From positions 1 to 64,000 of the forward strand of contig NZ_LRTR01000818.1 of NCBI RefSeq assembly GCF_001550375.1: a DNA stretch of 64,000 bases. The letters run 5' to 3'. The DNA comes from Streptomyces europaeiscabiei. GTDB taxonomy: Bacteria > Actinomycetota > Actinomycetes > Streptomycetales > Streptomycetaceae. The notes below the pieces were generated by a model. It worked only from the letters and a program-made list of their open reading frames with translations, was not told the DNA's origin and ran no database searches. The first letter of the stretch is position 1; each line of letters opens with the position of its first letter. Made by a program: the position numbers and the translations under genes. Positions 34,436-43,955 of the stretch are shown here, piece after piece.

Positions 34436-35479
34436 ATGGCGACGATGAAGTCCGTCCGGACCGCCGGTGTCGGCAAGGTCGAGGTCGTGGACGTCGAGCG
34501 CCCCGTGCCCGGCCCCAAGGACGTGCTCGTCCGCGTCCGCGCCTGCGGCATCTGTGGCACCGACGTCACCTTCCTGCACATGGGAGGCATGCCCGCCCGT
34601 GGTCACCAGGGCGGTGAGATGGTGCCGGTGCCGCTCGGCCACGAGCCGGCCGGTGAGATCGTCGAGGTCGGCGCCGAGGTGACCGGTCTCGCCGCCGGGG
34701 ACCGGGTGGTCGTCAACCCGCAGGACGCGCCGACCGGCATCATCGGCTGCGGCGGCAGGTACGGCGGGATGAGCGAGTACCTGCTGATCGAGAACGCCGA
34801 GGTCGGCAAGGGCGTGGCCGTCTTCCCCGACACCGTGCCCTTCGACATCGCCTCCCTCAACGAGCCGATGGCCGTGGCCCGGCACTGCGTCAACCGTTCC
34901 GGGGCGGGACCGGACGACAAGGTCGTCGTCTTCGGTGCGGGGCCCATCGGCCTCGGCGCGGCGATCTGGCTGAAGCTGCGCGGTGTGAAGCACGTGGTCG
35001 TCGCCGACGTGATCCCCTCCCGGCTGGAGAAGGCACTGGCCGTGGGCGCGGACGCCGTCATCGACTCCGCCCAGGAGGATGTCGCCGCGCGGCTCACCGA
35101 ACTGCACGGCCGGGCCGCCAACGCGCTCGGCCAGCCCCGGCCCGGCACGGACGTCTTCATCGACGCGGCCGGGGCCCCCGCCGTGTTCAACACCGTGGTG
35201 GGCTCGGCCAAGTGGGGCGCGAAGCTCGTCATGGTCGCCGTGCAGAAGAAGGGTTCGGAGATCGATCTCGGCGGCATGCTCCGCAGCGAGCTGACCCTGA
35301 TCGCCTCCCAGGGCTACCCCACGGAGATCTTCGAGGTCACCCCCGAGATCGTCGAGCACCACGAGCGCTTCGCCGAGCTCATCAGCCACCGGGTGCCCGC
35401 CGCCGACGTCGACCGGGCCTTCGAGCTGGCGCTGACGCCGGGGGCGGCGGAGAAGGTGGTCGTCACCTTCGACGAGTAG
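34436..35479 (+). CDS. Zinc-dependent MDR alcohol/polyol dehydrogenase
   Basis: 347 residues of the medium-chain dehydrogenase superfamily. Catalytic zinc ligands Cys40 (GICGTD) and His69-Glu70 (GHEPAGEI), then the NAD motif VVVFGAGPIGLGAAIWLK. The usual four-cysteine structural zinc lobe is missing: only one cysteine lies in that loop (GIIGCGGRYGG), so it resembles sorbitol/threonine-type dehydrogenases lacking the structural zinc. Substrate unknown. Confidence 0.92.
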   Translation: MATMKSVRTAGVGKVEVVDVERPVPGPKDVLVRVRACGICGTDVTFLHMGGMPARGHQGGEMVPVPLGHEPAGEIVEVGAEVTGLAAGDRVVVNPQDAPTGIIGCGGRYGGMSEYLLIENAEVGKGVAVFPDTVPFDIASLNEPMAVARHCVNRSGAGPDDKVVVFGAGPIGLGAAIWLKLRGVKHVVVADVIPSRLEKALAVGADAVIDSAQEDVAARLTELHGRAANALGQPRPGTDVFIDAAGAPAVFNTVVGSAKWGAKLVMVAVQKKGSEIDLGGMLRSELTLIASQGYPTEIFEVTPEIVEHHERFAELISHRVPAADVDRAFELALTPGAAEKVVVTFDE

Positions 35480-35500
35480 GACGGCGCGGTCCTGAGGGGC

Positions 35501-35541
35501 GAGGGGCCCGCCGCCGGTTCGTCGCCGGCGGCGGGCCCCTC
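35501..35541. terminator. Strong bidirectional terminator
   Basis: Perfect 17-bp stem (gaggggcccgccgccgg paired with ccggcggcgggcccctc) with a 7-base loop. It lies 21 bp after the alcohol dehydrogenase stop and 17 bp beyond the stop of the LuxR remnant on the other strand. Confidence 0.9.
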
Positions 35542-35557
35542 GCCGTGCGTGGCCGGG

Positions 35558-35830
35558 CTACCTGTTGTCGAGGTACGCCAGCTCGGCCAGCACCCTGCGG
35601 TGGCCGCTGTCGCCGGTCGGCAGGCCCAGCTTCAGGAAGACGTTGCCGATGTGCTTGCTGACCGCGCGTTCGGTGACGACCAGGGTCCTGGCGATGGTGG
35701 CGTTGTCGTGTCCCTCGGCCATCAGCTTCAGCACCTCGCGCTCGCGCGGGGTGAGCGAGTCGAGCGGTGAGTCCTTGCGGCGGGCCAGGCGCTTGAGCTC
35801 GTGGACGGTGATGCCGCGGGGCTCCGGGGT
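35558..35830 (-). pseudogene. 3' remnant of a NarL/LuxR-type response regulator
   Basis: The last 80 codons encode a complete LuxR-type helix-turn-helix (SLTPREREVLKLMAEGHDN, VTERAVSKHIGN) and the typical C-terminus of NarL response regulators (LGLP, HRRVLAELAYL). Upstream of about 35806 the frame stays open but is not protein-like; the 130-residue receiver domain is absent. It is on the same strand as the histidine-kinase remnant at 39544-39705, and the expected gap between them is filled by a four-gene cassette. Confidence 0.8.
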
Positions 35831-35921
35831 GTCGAAGGTCCGGGTACGGACTGTGCCGGGTTGCGAAGAGTGCGGCGGGCCGGGCGGCGTCGGTGAGGTT
35901 GTTGCAGCGCACGAAGTCTGC

Positions 35922-37262
35922 TCAGCGGGCCTGGGGTTCGGGTTCCGGGGCGAGAGGGCCGGGCTGGGGTGCACGGACGGCCGGCGCGGTTTCCGGGAGG
36001 CGGCGCAGGACGGGCAGGACGGCCAGGGCAGTGGCGGCGACCAGGGCGCCGGGGATCAGGGCCCAGCCGGTGGAGTCGACCAGGGCCTGGGAGGCGTACG
36101 GGGTGAGTCCGCCGAAGAGGGCGGTGGCTGCGGTGGCGCCGAGCGCGAGGCCGCTGAGGCGCTGGGCGACGGGGAACTGTTCGGCGATCGCGGAGGCCGC
36201 GACCGCGCTGATGCCGCCTGCCACGCAGGCCAGGACGACCGCGCCGGCCAGTGCGGCGGCGAAGCTGCCCTGGGTCATCAGGCCGAACATGGCCGGCGGC
36301 AGGATCACCGCCAGGGCACCGAAGAGCGTGAGTGCGGGGCGGCGGCCTGCACGGTCGGACAGGGCGCCCGCGAACGGCGTGACGACGATGACGACGAGGG
36401 CCGCGATGGTCGACAGCCACAGGGCGTCGGACTCGCTGAAGCCGCTGACCGCGCCGAGGTAGGTGGGGACGTAGCTGATGCCGACGTAGTACGTCACCGA
36501 GCCGAGCGCCGAGATCGCGAACGTCCGGTAGAGCGCGGGGCGCTGGGTGCGCAGAGTGGTCATCAGTGGGCCCGCGCCCTTGGTGTCGGGCGGGGGCTGC
36601 TGCTCGAAGGCGGGGGATTCGCGCATGGTGGAGCGGGCGATCAGCACCGTGGTGGCGAGCAGCGTGCCGAACAGGAAGGGGATGCGCCACCCCCACGCGT
36701 CCAGGGTGGGACCGGGGACGAGGGTGACGGTGAGGGCAGCGACGCCGGCGGCGAGCAGCGCGCCGATCTCGCTGGCGGCGGAGGCCAGCGAGGCGACCAG
36801 GCCGCGCCGATGGGGTGGGGCGCCTTCGACCAGGTAGGCGGTGACGCCGGTGTACTCGCCGCCGACGGCGAAGCCCATGACGCAGCGCAGCAGCAACAGC
36901 AGTGCCCCGGCGGCGGAGCCGATCTGGTCGTGGGTCGGGAGCAGGGCGGTGGCCAGCATCGCGGCGGTCATGACTGCCATCGAGCCGAGCAGCACCTTGC
37001 GGCGCCCGAGCCGGTCCCCGATGTGGCCGAAGGCCATCGCGCCGAGCGGGCGCATCAGGTAGGCGACGGCGAAGACCGCCAGGGTGATCAGGAGCGAGGT
37101 GGAGCCGGTGCCGAAGAACACCCGGGACAGCACGGTGGTCATGTACAGGTACAGCGTGAAGTCGTACCACTCCACGACGGTGGACAGGGCCGCCACCAGA
37201 ATGGAGGACCGGGGCAGGACGGCTATCGCCTGAGCGGGCGAGGTGGGTGCGAGGGATTCCAT
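35922..37262 (-). CDS. MFS transporter, metabolite:H+ symporter (MHS) family
   Basis: 446 residues with 12 predicted helices. The N-terminal VVEWYDFTLY, the loop motif GHIGDRLGRRKVL and RCVMGFAVGGEYTG are the hallmarks of the MHS family (ProP, KgtP, ShiA relatives), which import osmolytes or organic acids with protons. ATG 37262; the frame upstream is not conserved. First inward gene on the minus side of a cassette whose regulator is PadR-like. Substrate unknown; the SnoaL-like neighbour hints at small organic molecules. Confidence 0.93.
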   Translation of the reverse strand: MESLAPTSPAQAIAVLPRSSILVAALSTVVEWYDFTLYLYMTTVLSRVFFGTGSTSLLITLAVFAVAYLMRPLGAMAFGHIGDRLGRRKVLLGSMAVMTAAMLATALLPTHDQIGSAAGALLLLLRCVMGFAVGGEYTGVTAYLVEGAPPHRRGLVASLASAASEIGALLAAGVAALTVTLVPGPTLDAWGWRIPFLFGTLLATTVLIARSTMRESPAFEQQPPPDTKGAGPLMTTLRTQRPALYRTFAISALGSVTYYVGISYVPTYLGAVSGFSESDALWLSTIAALVVIVVTPFAGALSDRAGRRPALTLFGALAVILPPAMFGLMTQGSFAAALAGAVVLACVAGGISAVAASAIAEQFPVAQRLSGLALGATAATALFGGLTPYASQALVDSTGWALIPGALVAATALAVLPVLRRLPETAPAVRAPQPGPLAPEPEPQAR

Positions 37263-37332
37263 GATGTGCCTTGCGGGAGGGCGGCAGCGCGGACCAGGAC
37301 GGTTGCGCGGGAGGAGGAGGCGCCTGTCTGCC

Positions 37333-37752
37333 TCACGGCGCCGGTACGGCGCCGATCTGCTGCATGAGCCCGAGGAGATCGGGCTGACCCCGCTCTTTGA
37401 CGATGCGTCCATCGGCCAGGTAGTAGAAGTTCATGGCCTGGACCGCGATCTTGTTGCCGGTGGCAGGGATGCCGAAGAACTCGCCTTCGTGAGTGCCGCG
37501 CATGGTGAACCGTGCGGCCACCGTGCTGCCTTCGGTGATGCTCTCCTCCAGCGTCCACCGGACGTCGGGGAATGCGCTGCGCATCATCGCGATGATTTCC
37601 AGGTAGCCCTCAGGGCCCCGCAGCGGTTCAGCGTGACTGGGTGCGTGGAACACCGCGTCGGGGGCGATGACCTCCCGGGCAAGGTCCTCGTCGGCTGTGT
37701 TGATGAACTCGACGAAGCGCTTCATCACTGATTCAACGGATTCCGGTGACAT
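37333..37752 (-). CDS. SnoaL-like (NTF2 fold) protein
   Basis: 139 residues of the SnoaL/NTF2 cone fold: VMKRFVEFINTADEDLAREVIAPD at the start, PDVRWTLEESITEGSTVAARF in the middle and a FYYLADGRIVKERGQPDLLGLMQQ end. Such proteins are often polyketide cyclases, isomerases or of unknown role. ATG 37752 follows an AGAGG site; the frame goes on to 37815 through operator DNA. It lies 70 bp before the MFS gene on the same strand and is divergent from padR. Confidence 0.88.
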   Translation of the reverse strand: MSPESVESVMKRFVEFINTADEDLAREVIAPDAVFHAPSHAEPLRGPEGYLEIIAMMRSAFPDVRWTLEESITEGSTVAARFTMRGTHEGEFFGIPATGNKIAVQAMNFYYLADGRIVKERGQPDLLGLMQQIGAVPAP

Positions 37753-37816
37753 TTGCCTCTGCCTCTCTGCCTGCGTGGTGGTGTTCGAAGCGAACGGCAG
37801 GACCATGACGACCATA

Positions 37817-37893
37817 ACATCGAATCGATGTGAACCTCGTTTCGATGTGACGACTGTGACATCGAATCGATGTGAACCTCGTTTCGATATGTC
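37817..37893. promoter_or_regulatory. Duplicated PadR operator in the divergent promoter
   Basis: Two near-identical 35-bp units (37817-37851 and 37859-37893), each with the near-palindrome acatcgaatcgatgt followed by a second half-site tttcgatgtga or tttcgatatgt. The period is 42 bp, four helical turns, so both copies face the same side of the DNA. They lie between the SnoaL gene and padR. Confidence 0.85.
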
Positions 37894-37904
37894 ACCCTGG
37901 AGGG

Positions 37905-38483
37905 ATGCTGGAACTCTCCATACTCGGCTTCCTGGCCGCAGGCCCCCTTCCCGGACACGAGCTGCGCCGCCGCGTCACGCACCTCACCGGATACAGCCGA
38001 CCGGTCAGCGACGGCACCCTCTACCCGGCGATCAACCGCCTGACCAAGGCCGGACTGATTCAGCGGCGACCCGCGCCGGAAGCAGGAGGCGGCCGGTATG
38101 TGCTGAACCTGACCGACACGGGCCGCGAGGACATGCTCCGGCGGCTGCGCGAGCCGGCCGAGCACGAACTCACCGACTTCCCCCGCTGGTTCACGATCCT
38201 GGCCTTCCTCTCCCTGCTCCCGGACGTGGCCGACCAGCACGCGGTGCTCAGGCGCCGGCTCGCCTTCCTGGAGGAATCGGCGAGCTTCTTCTACGACGGA
38301 GAGACGCCGCTGCGCGCCGAGGAGGTCGCAGACCCCTACCGGCGCGGCATGCTGCTCACCGCCCGCGCCACCAGCCAGGCCGAACGAACCTGGATCCGCG
38401 AGTCCCTCGGCCAGGACACCCCCGGGCCCGGCCCCACGCGCGACCCACACGCCTCCTCCCCGCTCGACGCATCGGCGAGCTGA
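37905..38483 (+). CDS. PadR-family regulator
   Basis: 192 residues: N-terminal winged helix of the PadR type (MLELSILGFLAAGPLPGHELRRR, SDGTLYPAINRLTKAGLI, RYVLNLTDTG) and a C-terminal helical dimerisation domain. ATG 37905 has GGAGG immediately upstream. Duplicated operators lie in its promoter, so autorepression and joint control of the divergent SnoaL-MFS genes and the downstream reductase are likely. Confidence 0.93.
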   Translation: MLELSILGFLAAGPLPGHELRRRVTHLTGYSRPVSDGTLYPAINRLTKAGLIQRRPAPEAGGGRYVLNLTDTGREDMLRRLREPAEHELTDFPRWFTILAFLSLLPDVADQHAVLRRRLAFLEESASFFYDGETPLRAEEVADPYRRGMLLTARATSQAERTWIRESLGQDTPGPGPTRDPHASSPLDASAS

Positions 38484-38504
38484 CAGACAACGAAAGGCGC
38501 CCCC

Positions 38505-39485
38505 ATGCTTGCTTCCTGGTACGACGCACAAGGCCCGGCCACCGAGGTACTGCAGGTCGGTGAACTGCCCGACCCCACCCCCGGCCCTGGCGAGGTCCGG
38601 GTCCGCGTCACCGTCTCGGGGGTGAACCCCGGCGACACCAAGAAGCGCACTGGCTGGACCGGCTCCGGCATGCCCTACCCGCGGGTGATCCCGCACAGCG
38701 ACGCCGCCGGCGTGATCGACGCGGTCGGCGACGGAGTCGACGAGCGCCGCAGCGGGCAGCGCGTGTGGGTGTACGGCGCCCAGTCCTACCGGGCCTTCGG
38801 TACCGCCGCCCAGTACGCAGTCGTGCCCGTCGGCCTCACCGTCCCGCTGCCCGACCACCTCTCCGACGATCTCGGCGCGAGCCTGGGCATCCCCGGCATC
38901 ACCGCGCACCGCAGCGTGTTCGCCGACGGCCCCGTCGATGGCAAGGTCGTCCTGGTCAACGGGGCCCTGGGCGGGGTCGGCTCGCTGGCAGCCCAGCTCG
39001 CCGCATGGGGTGGGGCCACCGTCATCGGCACCGTCCGCCGCACAGCCGACCTGGACCGGGTCGATCCGGCGGTCATCTCCCACGCCGTCGCCCTCGACGC
39101 CGCCGACCCGGCCGCCGAGATCCTCGCCCACGCCCCCGCCGGTGTGGACCGGATCATCGAGGTGTCCCTGTCCGACAACGCCGACCTCGACAACGCCGTC
39201 GCCGCCAACGGCGCAACCATCGCCGCCTACGCCACCCGCGCCGACCGCACCGAAATCCCCTTCTGGACCCTGCTGTTCAACAACGTCACCCTGCGCCTGA
39301 TCGGCAGCGACGACTTCCCCGCCGACGCCAAACTCCAGGCCGCCCGTGATCTGACCTCCGCGGCCGCCGTCGGCGCGCTTACCGTCGAGATCGGCGACCG
39401 CTACCCGCTCGCCGACATCGCCAAGGCCCACGACCGCGTCGACTCCGGCGGCCGCGGCCGCGTTCTGATCGACATCCCCCGATAA
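38505..39485 (+). CDS. Zinc-independent NADPH:quinone-oxidoreductase-like enzyme
   Basis: 326 residues of the MDR superfamily, quinone-reductase branch: N-terminal GVNPGDTKKRTGW, the nucleotide motif VLVNGALGGVGSLAAQLA, and no zinc-ligand cysteines. Reduces quinones or enones with NADPH. 21 bp downstream of padR, so cotranscribed. Last gene of the cassette; the remnant of a histidine kinase begins within 60 bp on the other strand. Confidence 0.92.
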   Translation: MLASWYDAQGPATEVLQVGELPDPTPGPGEVRVRVTVSGVNPGDTKKRTGWTGSGMPYPRVIPHSDAAGVIDAVGDGVDERRSGQRVWVYGAQSYRAFGTAAQYAVVPVGLTVPLPDHLSDDLGASLGIPGITAHRSVFADGPVDGKVVLVNGALGGVGSLAAQLAAWGGATVIGTVRRTADLDRVDPAVISHAVALDAADPAAEILAHAPAGVDRIIEVSLSDNADLDNAVAANGATIAAYATRADRTEIPFWTLLFNNVTLRLIGSDDFPADAKLQAARDLTSAAAVGALTVEIGDRYPLADIAKAHDRVDSGGRGRVLIDIPR

Positions 39486-39543
39486 GGCCCTGGAGAGCCG
39501 CCGTAGCAGCGGCCGCTGCCGTCTGTCGGGCCCTGACGCCCGC

Positions 39544-39705
39544 GTTGGTCAGGGCCTCGGCGACGACGAAGTAGGCGGCGGCCTCCACCGCGGCGGGCGG
39601 GCGCGGCCCGTCGGCCTCCTCCAACCCGCGCACGTCCACGGTCACTTCGAGACCGTTGCTCGCCGCCAGGGCCCGCCCGGCCCGGGCCATGGCTCCACTC
39701 ACCGC
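39544..39705 (-). pseudogene. Remnant of a NarL-type sensor histidine kinase
   Basis: About 54 codons match the region just before and into the ATP-binding domain of HPK7-type kinases (LEVTVDVRG, PAAVEAAAYFVVAEALTN), including the Asn of the N-box. The match stops abruptly at 39544. Neither the rest of the ATPase domain nor the membrane half was found in neighbouring frames; upstream sequence to 39843 is open but degenerate. It is likely the 5'-side relic of the operon whose response-regulator 3' end survives at 35558-35830. Confidence 0.65.
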
Positions 39706-39904
39706 GGTCGGCCGCTCGCCGACGACGGCACGGGCACGGGCCCGATCGGAGTCATGCCGGTCGCTCCGACGGCTGTGGTGTCCCCGACGTGCACTGTGGG
39801 GGCCGGTCTCCTGCGGCGACCGGTGGCACGACCCGTCGCGCACCTGCCCCTGCCCCTCTGCTGCGGCAGGTCGACCGAACCGGCCACCGACACCGCCCCA
39901 CTCC
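39706..39904. other. Degenerate DNA beyond the kinase remnant
   Basis: No further kinase sequence and no other gene recognised between the remnant and the stop of the intact histidine kinase gene at 39905. Confidence 0.5.
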
Positions 39905-41359
39905 CTACACCCCGGGCGCCTCGCTCTCGCCCGACGGCAGGCGCACGGTGAACGTCGTCGTGCCCGGTTCGCCGGTCAGGGTGATGGTGCCGCCGTGGGC
40001 GCGGACCAGGGAGCGGGCGACGGCGAGGCCGAGGCCGCTGCCGCCCCGGTCGCGACTGCGGGCCTTGTCGACACGGTAGAAACGGTCGAAGACGCGCTTC
40101 TGGTCGTCGGCCGGGATACCGGGCCCGAAGTCGGTGATCCGCACCTCGGCCGAGCCGGACTCGACGGACACCTCCAGACGGACCTTCGTGCCGCGCGGGG
40201 TGTGCACGGCGGCGTTGGTGAGGAGGTTGTCGAGGACCTGCCGCAGCCGCAGGGGGTCCAGGCGCAGCCGTACGGGGTCGGAGCCGGTCGTCACGGTCAG
40301 CGGGTGGCCGGGGTGGCCCGCGCGGAAGGCGTCCGCCGCCTGGAGCGCCAGCTCCACCAGGTCGGCCTCCTCCAGTCGCAGCGGGGTCTCCACGTCGGCG
40401 GCGTCGAGGCGGGCGAGCATCAGGAGGTCGTCCAGCAGGTATCCCATGCGGGCGGCCTCGGCGCGCAGCCGGGCCAGGTGCTTGTCGCGTTCCTCGGGGC
40501 TGTGGGCGGCGGCGTACTGGAAGAGGTCGGCGTAGCCGCGCACCGACATCAGCGGGGTGCGCAGTTCGTGGGAGGCGTCGGCGACGAAGCGGCGCAGCCG
40601 CTGTTCGGCCTCGGTGCGGACGGCGAGGGCGTCGTCGATGTGCTCCAGCATGGTGTTGAAGGCGGTGCGCAGCTCCTCGACCTCGAAGCCGCCGTCGCGG
40701 TTGTCGTGGCGGACCGGCAGCCGTGCCGAGTCCGTCAGGTCGTGCGAGGTGATGCCGCGGGCGGTGTGCGCCATGTCGCTCAGCGGCTTCAGGCCGCGCC
40801 GCAGCATGGCCCGGCCGAACACCACGAGCGCCAGCAGGGCGAGGGCGAACGTGACGACCTGGATTGTGATCAGCCGGGCCACGGTGTCGTCGATGTCCTC
40901 CATCGGCGCGGCGCTGACGAGGACCACGCCGGGCTCGACCTCGCAGGCCCGCAGCCGGTACTGGCCCGCGCCCCTGAGGTACTCGGTGCGGGTGACCTCC
41001 GTGCCCTCGGTGGTCAGCGCCTTGGCCACGAGGGTGAAGTCCTCGATGTCCTTGGGGACGTCGGCGGGGTCCTCGGGCTTCCGGAGCACCGGGGTTCCCC
41101 CCGAGGTGTCGTAGACCGCGTAGTACCAGCCCCAGTACTTCTTGCCCTTGAGCGTGCCGTCGTACGCGATGCTCTTGGCCTGGGCGATCTGGGCGATCCG
41201 CAGCTGTTCGGTGAGCTGCGCGGAGAGGTAGTCGCGCATGTACATGGTCAGCGCGTTGCCGACGACGGCGAACACGACGAGCGCCAGGGCGCCGAGGCCG
41301 AGGGCCAGCCGGGTGCCGAGGCGCATGGAGCGGTAGCTCTGCCTGAGCCGGGCGATCAC
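39905..41359 (-). CDS. Sensor histidine kinase of a two-component system
   Basis: 484 residues: membrane segment about 18-40, extracytoplasmic sensor about 41-160, second membrane segment about 163-185, HAMP, then HisKA with the phospho-His in ASHELRTPL, and a HATPase with N-box NLLTNAAVHTP, DFGPGIP and GGSGLGLAV. It overlaps the response-regulator stop by 4 bp, so both are made together. The system is divergent from the ferric-reductase-like operon, its probable target. The signal is not known. Confidence 0.95.
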   Translation of the reverse strand: MIARLRQSYRSMRLGTRLALGLGALALVVFAVVGNALTMYMRDYLSAQLTEQLRIAQIAQAKSIAYDGTLKGKKYWGWYYAVYDTSGGTPVLRKPEDPADVPKDIEDFTLVAKALTTEGTEVTRTEYLRGAGQYRLRACEVEPGVVLVSAAPMEDIDDTVARLITIQVVTFALALLALVVFGRAMLRRGLKPLSDMAHTARGITSHDLTDSARLPVRHDNRDGGFEVEELRTAFNTMLEHIDDALAVRTEAEQRLRRFVADASHELRTPLMSVRGYADLFQYAAAHSPEERDKHLARLRAEAARMGYLLDDLLMLARLDAADVETPLRLEEADLVELALQAADAFRAGHPGHPLTVTTGSDPVRLRLDPLRLRQVLDNLLTNAAVHTPRGTKVRLEVSVESGSAEVRITDFGPGIPADDQKRVFDRFYRVDKARSRDRGGSGLGLAVARSLVRAHGGTITLTGEPGTTTFTVRLPSGESEAPGV

Positions 41360-42045
41360 TCCGTGGCCTGCCGTAGTACGTAGCCGAAGCCCCGGACGGT
41401 GTGGATGAGCGGTTCGCCGGTGTCGTCGAGCTTGCGGCGCAGCCGGCTGACGACCAGCTCGACGACGTTGGAGCGGCCGCCGAAGCCGTACTCCCAGACG
41501 TGGTCGAGGATCTGCGCCTTGGTGAGGACGGTCGGGGATTTGCGCATGAGGTAGCGCAGGACCTCGTACTCGGTGGGGGTGAGCGTGAGGAGTTTCTCCC
41601 CGCGGCGGACCTCGCGGGTGTCCTCGTCCATCGTCAGGTCCGCGACGTGGAGCACGGACCGCTGGAAGGCGGGCCCGGCGCTGCGGCGCAGCACGGTGCG
41701 CAGCCGGGCCATCAGCTCCTCCACGGCGAAGGGTTTGACCAGGTAGTCGTCGCCGCCGCGGGTGAGGCCCGCGACCCGGTCGGCGACGCCGTCGCGGGCG
41801 GTCAGGAACACCACAGGCACCATCGTGCCGGACTGGCGCAGCCGGTCGAGCACGCCGAAGCCGTCCACGCCCGGCAGCATCAGGTCCAGGACCACGATGT
41901 CGGGACGGAACGCGGCCGCCTGCCTGAGCGCCTCCTCACCCGAGTGCGCCGTCACCGCGTCCCAGCCCTCGTAGCGGGCGACGGTCGCCACCAGGTCAGC
42001 GATCGGTGGGTCGTCGTCCACCACGAGAAGTCGCACTTTTTCCAC
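41356..42045 (-). CDS. OmpR-family response regulator, partner of the kinase
   Basis: 229 residues: receiver with acidic triplet VVDDD, phosphoacceptor Asp in IVVLDLMLPGVDG, Thr in FLTARDG and Lys in LVKPFAVEEL, and winged helix LTPTEYEVLRYLMRK...NVVELVVSRLRRKLD. GTG 42045 is chosen because the receiver begins directly after it; the ribosome site is weak. The 148-bp divergent region to the flavocytochrome gene has an AT-rich patch near 42105-42140. Confidence 0.94.
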   Translation of the reverse strand: MEKVRLLVVDDDPPIADLVATVARYEGWDAVTAHSGEEALRQAAAFRPDIVVLDLMLPGVDGFGVLDRLRQSGTMVPVVFLTARDGVADRVAGLTRGGDDYLVKPFAVEELMARLRTVLRRSAGPAFQRSVLHVADLTMDEDTREVRRGEKLLTLTPTEYEVLRYLMRKSPTVLTKAQILDHVWEYGFGGRSNVVELVVSRLRRKLDDTGEPLIHTVRGFGYVLRQATE

Positions 42046-42193
42046 GTGTTCATACTGCGCTACCGATCGCGTCGCGCCATAGCCGCTCACAGGTTGGCAG
42101 CCGATCGATAAAAACTTGAAAGTTGTCCGACAGGAAAACGACAGCACTCACCGGCGAAGCTCGTAGTCCCCACCCGATCAAGGAGCTGTCCCC

Positions 42194-43537
42194 GTGACCA
42201 CTGTCCAACAACCCCCCGTGGCGGTCAGCCGCTCGGGAGCGCGCCCCAAAGTGGTCGCCCGCACCGGCCTGTACGCGGTGCTGGCGGCGAACGTGGCCGT
42301 GGTGACCTTCTTCTTCGTGCAAGCAGGCTTCGCCTCGAACGCCCTCATCGTGCTGGGCCGCCTGACCGGCCTGTACGGGGCCCTCCTGATGGCCTTCCAG
42401 CTGCTGCTGGTGGCCCGCCTGCCGTGGTTCGACCGGCGCATCGGCATGGACCGGCTGACCTCCTGGCACCGCTGGACCGGCTTCTCCGTGCTGTGGCTAC
42501 TGGTCGCGCACGGCGTGTTCATCAGCTTCGGCTACGCCCAGTCCTCGGGCATGGACCCGCTCAGCCAGCTCGTCGACCTCGCCGAGACCGTCGAGGGAGT
42601 GCTGCGCGCGATCGTCGCGCTCGGCATCATCATCGTGATCGGCGTCGTCTCGGCCCGCTTCGCCCGGCGCAGGCTGGCCTACGAGACCTGGCACTTCATC
42701 CACCTGTACACCTACGTCGCGGTGGTGCTGGCCTTCACCCACCAGGTCGCGGCGGGTACGTCGTTCGCCTCGTCCGAGACCGCGACGGCGTACTGGTACG
42801 TGCTGTGGGGCGTGGCCCTGGCCTCGGTGTTCACGGGTCGGCTGGTGCTGCCGCTGTGGCGCAACTGGCGTCACCAGCTTCGCGTCACCGCCGTCGTCCC
42901 CGAGGCCGACAACGTCGTCTCGATCTACATGTCCGGCCGTGACCTGGACCGGATGCCCGCGCGGGCCGGCCAGTTCTTCCTGTGGCGCTTCCTGACCCGG
43001 GACCGCTGGTGGCAGGCCAACCCCTTCTCCCTGTCGGCCGCGCCCGACGGCACGCAGCTGCGGCTGACCGCGAAGGCGGCCGGCGAGGGCTCCGCCGCCC
43101 TGCGACACGTCAAGGTCGGCACCCGCGTCTTCGCCGAGGGCCCGTACGGCGCCTTCACCGCGATGCACCGCACCCGGCCGGAGTCCGTGCTCATCGCCGG
43201 CGGCGTCGGCGTCACCCCCATCCGGGCCCTGCTGGAGGAGATCGAGGGGCACGCCGTGGTCATCTACCGGGTGGCCGCGAAGCAGGACGCCGTCCTCTAC
43301 AACGAGCTCCAGCAGCTCGCCTTCGACAAGGGCGCCGAGCTGCACCTGGTCTCCGGCCCCGCCAGCCCCGACCTGCTGGCTCCGCGCGAACTGCAACGCA
43401 TGGTGCCGGACATCACCGACCGGGACGTGTTCCTGTGCGGGCCGCCGCCGATGATGAACGCGGTCCTGCGCAGCCTGCGCGAGCTGGACGTGCCCAAGCC
43501 GCAGATCCACTTCGAACGCTTCAGCCTGGCTGGATGA
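42194..43537 (+). CDS. Ferric-reductase-like transmembrane flavocytochrome
   Basis: 447 residues. The N-terminal half has about six membrane helices with paired histidines (WHRWTGF, VAHGVF, WHFIHLYTYV, FTHQVA) for heme, as in the ferric reductase domain. The C-terminal half is a ferredoxin-reductase-type module: FAD motif NPFSLSAAP, GGVGVTPIRALLEE for NAD(P) and the end motif CGPPPMM. It moves electrons from cytosolic NAD(P)H across the membrane. GTG 42194 has an AAGGAGC site. First gene of a three-gene operon with an FMN protein and ApbE. Confidence 0.94.
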   Translation: MTTVQQPPVAVSRSGARPKVVARTGLYAVLAANVAVVTFFFVQAGFASNALIVLGRLTGLYGALLMAFQLLLVARLPWFDRRIGMDRLTSWHRWTGFSVLWLLVAHGVFISFGYAQSSGMDPLSQLVDLAETVEGVLRAIVALGIIIVIGVVSARFARRRLAYETWHFIHLYTYVAVVLAFTHQVAAGTSFASSETATAYWYVLWGVALASVFTGRLVLPLWRNWRHQLRVTAVVPEADNVVSIYMSGRDLDRMPARAGQFFLWRFLTRDRWWQANPFSLSAAPDGTQLRLTAKAAGEGSAALRHVKVGTRVFAEGPYGAFTAMHRTRPESVLIAGGVGVTPIRALLEEIEGHAVVIYRVAAKQDAVLYNELQQLAFDKGAELHLVSGPASPDLLAPRELQRMVPDITDRDVFLCGPPPMMNAVLRSLRELDVPKPQIHFERFSLAG

Positions 43538-43556
43538 GGGACACGAGGAAAGCACT

Positions 43557-43955
43557 GTGAAACGAGTCATACCCGCCCTGGTCCTGAGCGCCGCCGCGCT
43601 GGTCCCCGTCTGGCGTTACGCCCCCTCGACCGACACGACGTCCACGACGACGACCGCCGAGTCGACGCCTTCGGCCTCCGCGTCCGCCGCGGCCGGTTCC
43701 AACGTCGTCACAGGCACGACGATCGACACCGAGAAGGGCCCCGTCCAGGTCCAGGCGACCTTCCGGGGCGAGAAGATCACCGCCGTCAGGATGCTCCAGC
43801 AGCCGGACCATCCGCAGACCGAGGCGGCGGTGCCGGTGCTGATCGAGGAGACCCTCGAAGCGCAGAGCGCCGACATCGACACGGTCTCGGGCGCCACGCT
43901 CACCAGCGACGGCTACCGGGAGTCCCTCCAGGCCGCGATCGACACGAAGGCCTGA
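43557..43955 (+). CDS. FMN-binding domain protein, membrane-anchored
   Basis: 132 residues. An N-terminal hydrophobic segment (residues 5-18) is followed by a Ser/Thr linker and a single FMN_bind domain. The flavinylation motif DTVSGATLTSDGY is present, with Thr114 expected to carry FMN through a phosphoester bond. Starts at GTG 43557, 19 bp after the reductase gene, with the ApbE gene 4 bp downstream. It probably accepts electrons outside the membrane from the upstream flavocytochrome. Confidence 0.92.
   Translation: MKRVIPALVLSAAALVPVWRYAPSTDTTSTTTTAESTPSASASAAAGSNVVTGTTIDTEKGPVQVQATFRGEKITAVRMLQQPDHPQTEAAVPVLIEETLEAQSADIDTVSGATLTSDGYRESLQAAIDTKA

Follow-up and report, generated by a model that had tools for sequence, protein, structure and literature searches.

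Tn4556, a Streptomyces transposon of the Tn3 family, has been described as an element in which a terminal repeat is followed by tnpA, passenger genes, tnpR and the other terminal repeat, with tnpA (PF01526) beginning ~200 nt from one terminal repeat and two passenger genes lying in the middle (PMC6403206). In Streptomyces ambofaciens, DNA of 30 bp to 18.8 kb has been reported as inserted where breaks had been repaired, in one case 30 bp of a transposase gene, and half of the break scars in the central chromosome held 1-6-nt microhomology (PMC5869714). The present analysis concerns a 64,000-nt stretch of contig NZ_LRTR01000818.1 from Streptomyces europaeiscabiei (hereafter the window, in whose coordinates all positions are given), the genome of which, G000, is available as a 10.5-Mb assembly. 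In the window, a four-gene cassette encoding an MFS transporter, a SnoaL-like protein, a PadR-family regulator and a quinone oxidoreductase-like protein (the reductase) occupies the place where the middle of a histidine kinase-response regulator pair is found in relatives. As judged from sequence comparison, this cassette is a passenger of a decayed Tn3-family transposon, and the stretch replacing the middle of the pair corresponds to the interior of such an element, reaching from inside tnpR to near the tnpA stop codon.

The cassette and its Tn3-family vehicle

The arrangement closest to a donor was found in genome G278, where the cassette lies between a Tn3-family transposase gene, tnpA (PF01526, E=4.6e-127; NF033527, E=5.3e-165), and a serine resolvase gene, tnpR (PF00239, E=1.2e-16), the latter at a distance of 374 bp from where the cassette match ends. 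Positions 35795-39539 of the window are present there whole at 97% identity, and the individual genes agree at 98.3% (MFS), 98.8% (SnoaL), 99.0% (PadR) and 98.6% (reductase). The G278 cassette is located at 8.97 Mb, and the G278 copy of the right flank of the window at 7.39 Mb, with 83% DNA identity. One terminal repeat of the G278 element was recognised by comparison with other tnpA copies, namely those of the G386 and G269 elements: the sequence just past the G278 tnpR agrees with the terminal repeat upstream of the G386 tnpA (51/53 aligned bases), and that of G269 is similar. The gene order, with the cassette as passenger, is the same as in the published description of Tn4556, to which the G278 element is likened here, whereas the TnpR of Tn4556 is assigned in that description to the phage integrase family (PF00589) and the G278 tnpR product is of the serine type (PMC6403206). 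Tn4556 also differs in carrying other passengers, and the window copy differs from it in lacking tnpA, most of tnpR and both repeats.

Both edges of this interior could be located in the window, where the features at the two junctions are as follows.

35558-35788, minus strand: 3' end of a NarL/LuxR-type response regulator gene, 77 codons with the stop, receiver domain missing (GerE, E=2e-14)
35780-35811, minus strand: piece of a Tn3-type serine resolvase gene, 32 bp, perfect (100% match to the G278 tnpR)
35812-35921, minus strand: segment downstream of the MFS gene, common to G278 and genome G012 by DNA match
39486-39539, no strand: spacer piece, 54 bp of the 57-bp spacer of G278 (39485-39539 against G278, 93% over 55 bp)
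39542-39689, minus strand: internal piece of a histidine kinase gene, 148 bp, from the DHp/ATPase linker to the N-box, by DNA identity to intact kinases

At the left junction, homology to the regulator stops at 35788, and the 9 bp at 35780-35788 (GCGGG[C/T]CAG) are common to the regulator and resolvase genes, with one difference from G244, a relative with an intact pair. The resolvase scrap is joined to 35812-35921 through a short imperfect repeat, and at this end the window lacks 391 bp that in G278 lie between a pair of imperfect 17-base repeats; 35812-35921 looks like the end of another gene, possibly a radical-SAM-like one. At the right junction, the reference is the 57-bp spacer between the stop codons of the reductase gene and tnpA in G278. 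Similarity to G278 and to a further copy in genome G508 ends at 39539, which leaves 3 nt to the tnpA stop codon; from 39540-39542 onwards the DNA is that of the kinase gene, without clear microhomology. An earlier note on this DNA had reported neither a transposase nor a flanking repeat, which holds in that the window has no tnpA codon or terminal repeat, but has to be amended for the 32 bp of resolvase gene and the tnpA-side spacer.

Other copies of the cassette were found in G508, labelled as another genus of the family, and in G012. G508 carries 35913-39539 at 96.4% beside ~100 bp of the tnpA 3' end, the latter recovered as a 72-bp and a 43-bp match that overlap. The G012 copy (L021 7635-11515) agrees with the window at 97.2% over the MFS gene and at 85.0% over the SnoaL gene, with SnoaL, PadR and reductase at 78-85%, and reads as a mosaic with the switch near the SnoaL 3' end. 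Searched for in other genomes, as the earlier note had proposed, the four genes were thus found together at other loci, near-identical in G278 and G508 and as a mosaic in G012. A second copy in G000 that could have served as donor was ruled out, the cassette having a single match there at E<=1e-60.

A further association was detected on a linear plasmid of Streptomyces sp. NBC_01795 (NZ_CP109080.1, L219), which carries a PadR-reductase pair at 87% and 85% protein identity, adjoined by a recombinase 54% identical to the G278 resolvase; the reductase gene there is 4.4 kb away from a gene for a Tn3 transposase. This locus differs from the window in having an alpha/beta hydrolase gene in the divergent position and no SnoaL or MFS match, and its Tn3 transposase is only distantly related (20%). 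Co-occurrence of Tn3-type genes with a PadR-reductase module, as read from these loci, is therefore known from more than one instance and is not the rule. Among Streptomycetaceae, as the present case shows, Tn3-type elements can carry a PadR-reductase module that has an operator of its own. No report of such a cassette or of its Tn3 carriage was noticed in the open-licence PMC literature, as judged by titles and the starts of abstracts. On the NBC_01795 plasmid, the module was observed to adjoin recombinase, integrase and Tn3 transposase genes. Within the genome of the window itself, an internally deleted relic of a Tn3-type tnpA was seen at another place (G000:C853:32148-33099, L197).

The broken pair and its site in relatives

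Relatives of the site were found with the right flank 39905-43570, which matched in 111 of the 350 scored genomes (sample 392, 42 unscored); the genus and family genome samples were drawn evenly from larger groups, and their tallies include G000 where it matches. Ten site regions were fetched, six of them close at the right flank at 88-95% (G124, G312, G270, G244, G264 and G155) and the other four (G009, G140, G115 and G213) at ~83%. Two neighbouring genes served as landmarks.

34436-35479, plus strand: zinc alcohol dehydrogenase-like gene (ADH), left syntenic landmark, named by Pfam, at the same site in G124, G270, G244 and G264
39905-41359, minus strand: histidine kinase gene of a separate OmpR-type pair, right syntenic landmark (HisKA, HATPase_c), found at this site in all six close relatives

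An intact pair is present in G244 and G264, flanked as in the window by the ADH gene on one side and the OmpR-type kinase gene on the other, with an extra open reading frame (ORF) between ADH and regulator in G264. Receiver, GerE, HisKA_3 and HATPase_c domains were identified in the G244 pair, and receiver and GerE domains in the G264 regulator. Both remnants in the window match this one pair at this one site: at the DNA level, the regulator remnant agrees with the intact regulator at 94% over 35555-35788 in G244 and at 93% over 35563-35784 in G264, and the kinase piece with the intact kinases at 84% (E=6.8e-40) and 85%, respectively. An origin of the remnants from different pairs was ruled out by these syntenic intact pairs. 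The GerE match and the DNA identity to the intact pair bear out the claim of the earlier note that both remnants are real and lie on the minus strand in kinase-then-regulator order. The identity of the kinase remnant rests on DNA homology, because Pfam at E<=0.1 recognises no family in its ORF, HisKA_3 and HATPase_c thus being unmatched there; its peptide runs to ...VVAEALTN, which we take to be the start of the N-box. Likewise, Response_reg was not found by Pfam in the ORF of the regulator remnant. The cassette genes carried elsewhere by G278, G508 and G012 do not alter this reading, because other relatives do hold the pair at this site.

The limits of the remnants differ from those claimed earlier. 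The regulator 3' end, given in the earlier note as 35558-35830, is real, but its homology ends at 35788, and the kinase piece, given as 39544-39705, is indeed kinase DNA but an internal fragment (39542-39689). It had also been stated that exactly the facing parts of the two genes were lost; the kinase C-terminus and the receiver are gone, but so is the sensor/phosphoacceptor half of the kinase upstream of 39689, besides the rest of the ATPase domain. Where G244 has 956 bp and G264 737 bp between the two matched pieces, a part reaching from the N-box of the kinase to the linker of the regulator, the window has ~3.75 kb instead. Beyond the kinase piece, 39690-39800 gave weak, scattered matches to the G244 and G264 kinase genes (sensitive blastn, tblastx), and ~39801-39928 matches G124 and not G244 or G264, the three having been tested. 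Compared with G244, the regulator remnant shows 7 synonymous and 6 non-synonymous codon differences (G244 against G264: 7 and 5), and the kinase piece 10 and 10 (G244 against G264: 9 and 8).

Signalling by the old pair is no longer possible, because the phosphoacceptor part and most of the ATPase domain of the kinase and the receiver of the regulator are missing. It is quite improbable, if conceivable, that the helix-turn-helix (HTH) end of the regulator may still be made as a receiver-less DNA-binding domain rather than being dead; it follows the SnoaL-MFS operon in the same orientation, and an open frame continues into it from the resolvase scrap (ORF 35558-35974). If it were made, a phosphorylation-controlled regulon would have been rewired to the inducer of the incoming PadR cassette.

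Among the six close relatives, the pair is intact in two, reduced to ~100 bp of the regulator in G124 and absent from G270, G312 and G155, and no cassette was found at this site in any of these last four genomes. The gap of G270 has its own junction. The fetched stretches of G009, G140, G115 and G213 share the right flank and contain none of the left neighbours of the window and no pair at E<=1e-8. In the flank tree, G000 groups with G312 and then with G124, G270+G244 and G264 meet at an unresolved fork, and G155 falls outside. Several relatives thus lack a two-component pair at one site or have it disrupted, each in its own manner, and the site around it is possibly deletion-prone. As a separate observation, the pair (together with the ADH gene in G312 and G155) is missing or stubbed in 4/6 close relatives with differing end points.

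A donor-like arrangement (G278), the recipient site (G244 and G264) and the product (the window) are all in hand, and the junctions of a cassette acquisition across lineages can therefore be read to a few bases. The event is of an ordinary kind, well preserved, in which a transposon passenger was fixed in a broken host operon, and it adds no new class of system.

Routes by which the cassette may have arrived

We lean towards a course in which a transposon with the cassette as passenger entered the pair and then decayed in place, fixing the passenger. An element laid out like Tn4556, with its passengers between tnpA and tnpR, would have entered the kinase-regulator pair, and illegitimate end joining would then have deleted tnpA, most of tnpR, both terminal repeats and adjoining DNA of the pair. 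Decay in place is in keeping with the worn state of the element in both G508 and G278, and a Ku gene was found in G000 and in the six other genomes tested (7/7). Several observations weigh against this course. A whole transposon inside this pair was not seen in any genome, and the pair is missing without the cassette in relatives. The tnpA of G278 is likewise damaged, its reading split over three frames, and no second terminal repeat could be located ahead of it, a pairwise scan of both element ends included. The window copy has no tnpA codon, complete tnpR or terminal repeat, its similarity ending before the tnpA stop, so that a transposon insertion at this site is inferred; the G278 repeat end (within L064:1-1000) is unmatched in the contig of the window, where 35780-35811 alone matches from there. 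A resolvase-like gene was present in the fetched flank of 3 of the 46 PadR-reductase loci counted in the next section, G278 included, and because of this small number Tn3 carriage is supported for a minority of the copies of the module. Moreover, the functions of the four proteins are predicted from their families only, with NCBIfam matches below curated cut-offs.

The junction evidence fits a second route equally, which we regard as rather unlikely: the transposon would never have jumped into this site, and a cut and nibbled pair would have been joined, by Ku/LigD-type end joining, to a linear, transposon-borne cassette fragment from another genome. Such capture at a break requires fewer steps, as a single event replaces the middle of the pair, and it agrees with the presence of Ku in G000, with the 9 bp of near-identical sequence shared by the regulator and resolvase genes at the left junction and with the lack of clear microhomology at the right one. 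Comparable insertions at repaired breaks have been reported in S. ambofaciens and resemble the window in that DNA was both deleted and inserted and the ends were joined illegitimately, with hardly any microhomology or none, whereas the inserted DNA described there came from the same genome and that of the window is a foreign, complete gene cassette (PMC5869714). On the other hand, a fragment that ends beside the tnpA stop and inside tnpR is also expected from decay in place, and the cassette of G508 adjoins a tnpA worn to scraps. Between the two routes, entry of a transposon followed by its decay is preferred.

Either route is compatible with the pair having already been a decaying, dispensable relic when the cassette arrived, which is quite possible, though we hold it with some reserve. 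The distribution among the close relatives (intact in 2/6, a stub in G124, none in G270, G312 and G155) points this way, as do the separate junction of the G270 gap, the loss of the N-terminal half of the window kinase for reasons unrelated to the cassette junction, and the segment ~39801-39928, common to G124 only of the three genomes G244, G264 and G124. The surviving codons, a small sample, show no clear excess of amino-acid changes, which argues against long decay and fits a recent loss. The claim that the cassette replaced the middle of the operon accordingly stands in so far as the middle is gone and the cassette is in its place, but the cassette need not be what inactivated the pair, because 4/6 close relatives lack or stub the pair without a cassette there. 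A chance flanking of the cassette by fragments of two unrelated two-component systems might be entertained in view of the many NarL-type pairs in this genome (of the 16 G000 matches to the G244 pair DNA, the remnants account for two), but is refuted by the syntenic pairs: the nearest paralogue elsewhere in G000 (contig C686) reaches 74%, compared with 94% and 84% to the syntenic pair, and order, strand and flanks agree in two genomes. Nor does it seem at all credible that a foreign cassette was joined into the contig as an assembly artefact. The assembly is in 931 contigs, but such an artefact needs two separate false joins in the same pair at the same site with loss of its middle, and a 42-bp operator duplication sets the window copy apart from those of G278 and G508, which have one copy each.

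Cassette genes, operator and distribution of the module

The genes of the cassette and their operator region are listed below; the start codons used (MFS 37262, SnoaL 37752, PadR 37905) are all inferred.

35922-37262, minus strand: MFS transporter, metabolite:H+ symporter-like, 446 aa (PF07690/PF00083 on a longer ORF; best NCBIfam match TIGR00883, below cut-off)
37333-37752, minus strand: SnoaL-like protein, 139 aa (PF07366, E=9.1e-38, on a longer ORF)
37806-37889, no strand: two 42-bp tandem copies of the operator region, with the palindrome ACATCGAATCGATGT at 37817-37831 and 37859-37873
37905-38483, plus strand: PadR-family regulator, 192 aa (PF03551, E=6.4e-11, on a longer ORF, above its cut-off)
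38505-39485, plus strand: quinone oxidoreductase-like zinc dehydrogenase family protein, 326 aa (PF08240/PF00107; PDB 1yb5 'Quinone oxidoreductase', E=3.4e-27)

Pfam confirmed the four-gene unit as the earlier note had described it, with MFS and SnoaL on one strand and PadR and quinone reductase on the other. Residues 1-179 of the window PadR also match the PadR-like 'Conserved protein' of PDB 8jxk (E=1.8e-17). The start codons of the divergent PadR and SnoaL genes are 152 bp apart, and the interval holds ACATCGAATCGATGT followed by a degenerate second palindrome; in the divergent loci of relatives that were compared, the two palindromes are mostly paired and better kept than in the window. 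The perfect palindrome occurs in the 10.5-Mb genome at the two cassette places only, and the reversed control had no occurrence. This uniqueness strengthens the view of the unit as a self-contained regulated cassette and is the pattern expected of a dedicated cassette with predicted autoregulation. Since G278 and G508 have one perfect palindrome each, the extra 42-bp tandem operator copy being confined to the window among these three, the duplication probably post-dates the arrival of the cassette in this lineage, and it may change repression. From the families involved, PadR would bind the paired palindromes between the divergent genes until released by a small molecule, probably quinone-like or phenolic; release would induce the reductase together with SnoaL and MFS, which would reduce, modify and export the inducer.

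PadR-reductase modules are common in Streptomycetaceae. The cassette was matched in 72/392 genus genomes at E<=1e-60 (partial matches and G000 counted), and 35480-39904 in 76/394 family genomes at the same threshold (partial matches, G000 and matches to the regulator remnant only counted). Gene content was tallied over 50 loci (L001-L009, L037-L062 and L201-L215), which are the best-scoring ones with ~1.5 kb of flank, the window copy included, and not a census; L010-L020 (regulator or other matches) were excluded, as were L036 and L200, both of them the window once more. PadR and reductase were found together in 46/50 loci, of which 29 have SnoaL without MFS, 4 have both, 1 has MFS only and 10 have neither, and the remaining 2 have a resolvase-like gene with neither SnoaL nor MFS. 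Modules of the family with SnoaL, PadR and quinone reductase show the same divergent layout as the window and the same paired ACATCGAWTCGATGT-type operator, and the perfect ACATCGAWTCGATGT is present somewhere in 37/46 loci with PadR and reductase. The SnoaL-bearing, MFS-free modules share ~69-87% protein identity with the window over SnoaL, PadR and reductase. They make up the majority (29/46, as judged within the flank), whereas the window copy has both SnoaL and MFS, a combination seen in 4/46 loci only, those of G000 itself, G278, G508 and G012.

A search of plasmid sequences (73 records) found no single place covering 80% of the cassette. When contigs were scanned with the MFS protein, 80 loci at 54-74% were kept, with PadR-reductase-MFS neighbours in a few actinomycetes (e.g., L085-L087); near-identical copies were absent among these 80, from which records near the genome of the window may be left out. 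In addition, a second gene block, made up of DsbA-like, metallo-hydrolase-like and SnoaL-like ORFs (named by eye), was observed with the cassette in G278 (L063 10412-12674) and in G012 (L021 12581-14910), in differing arrangements.

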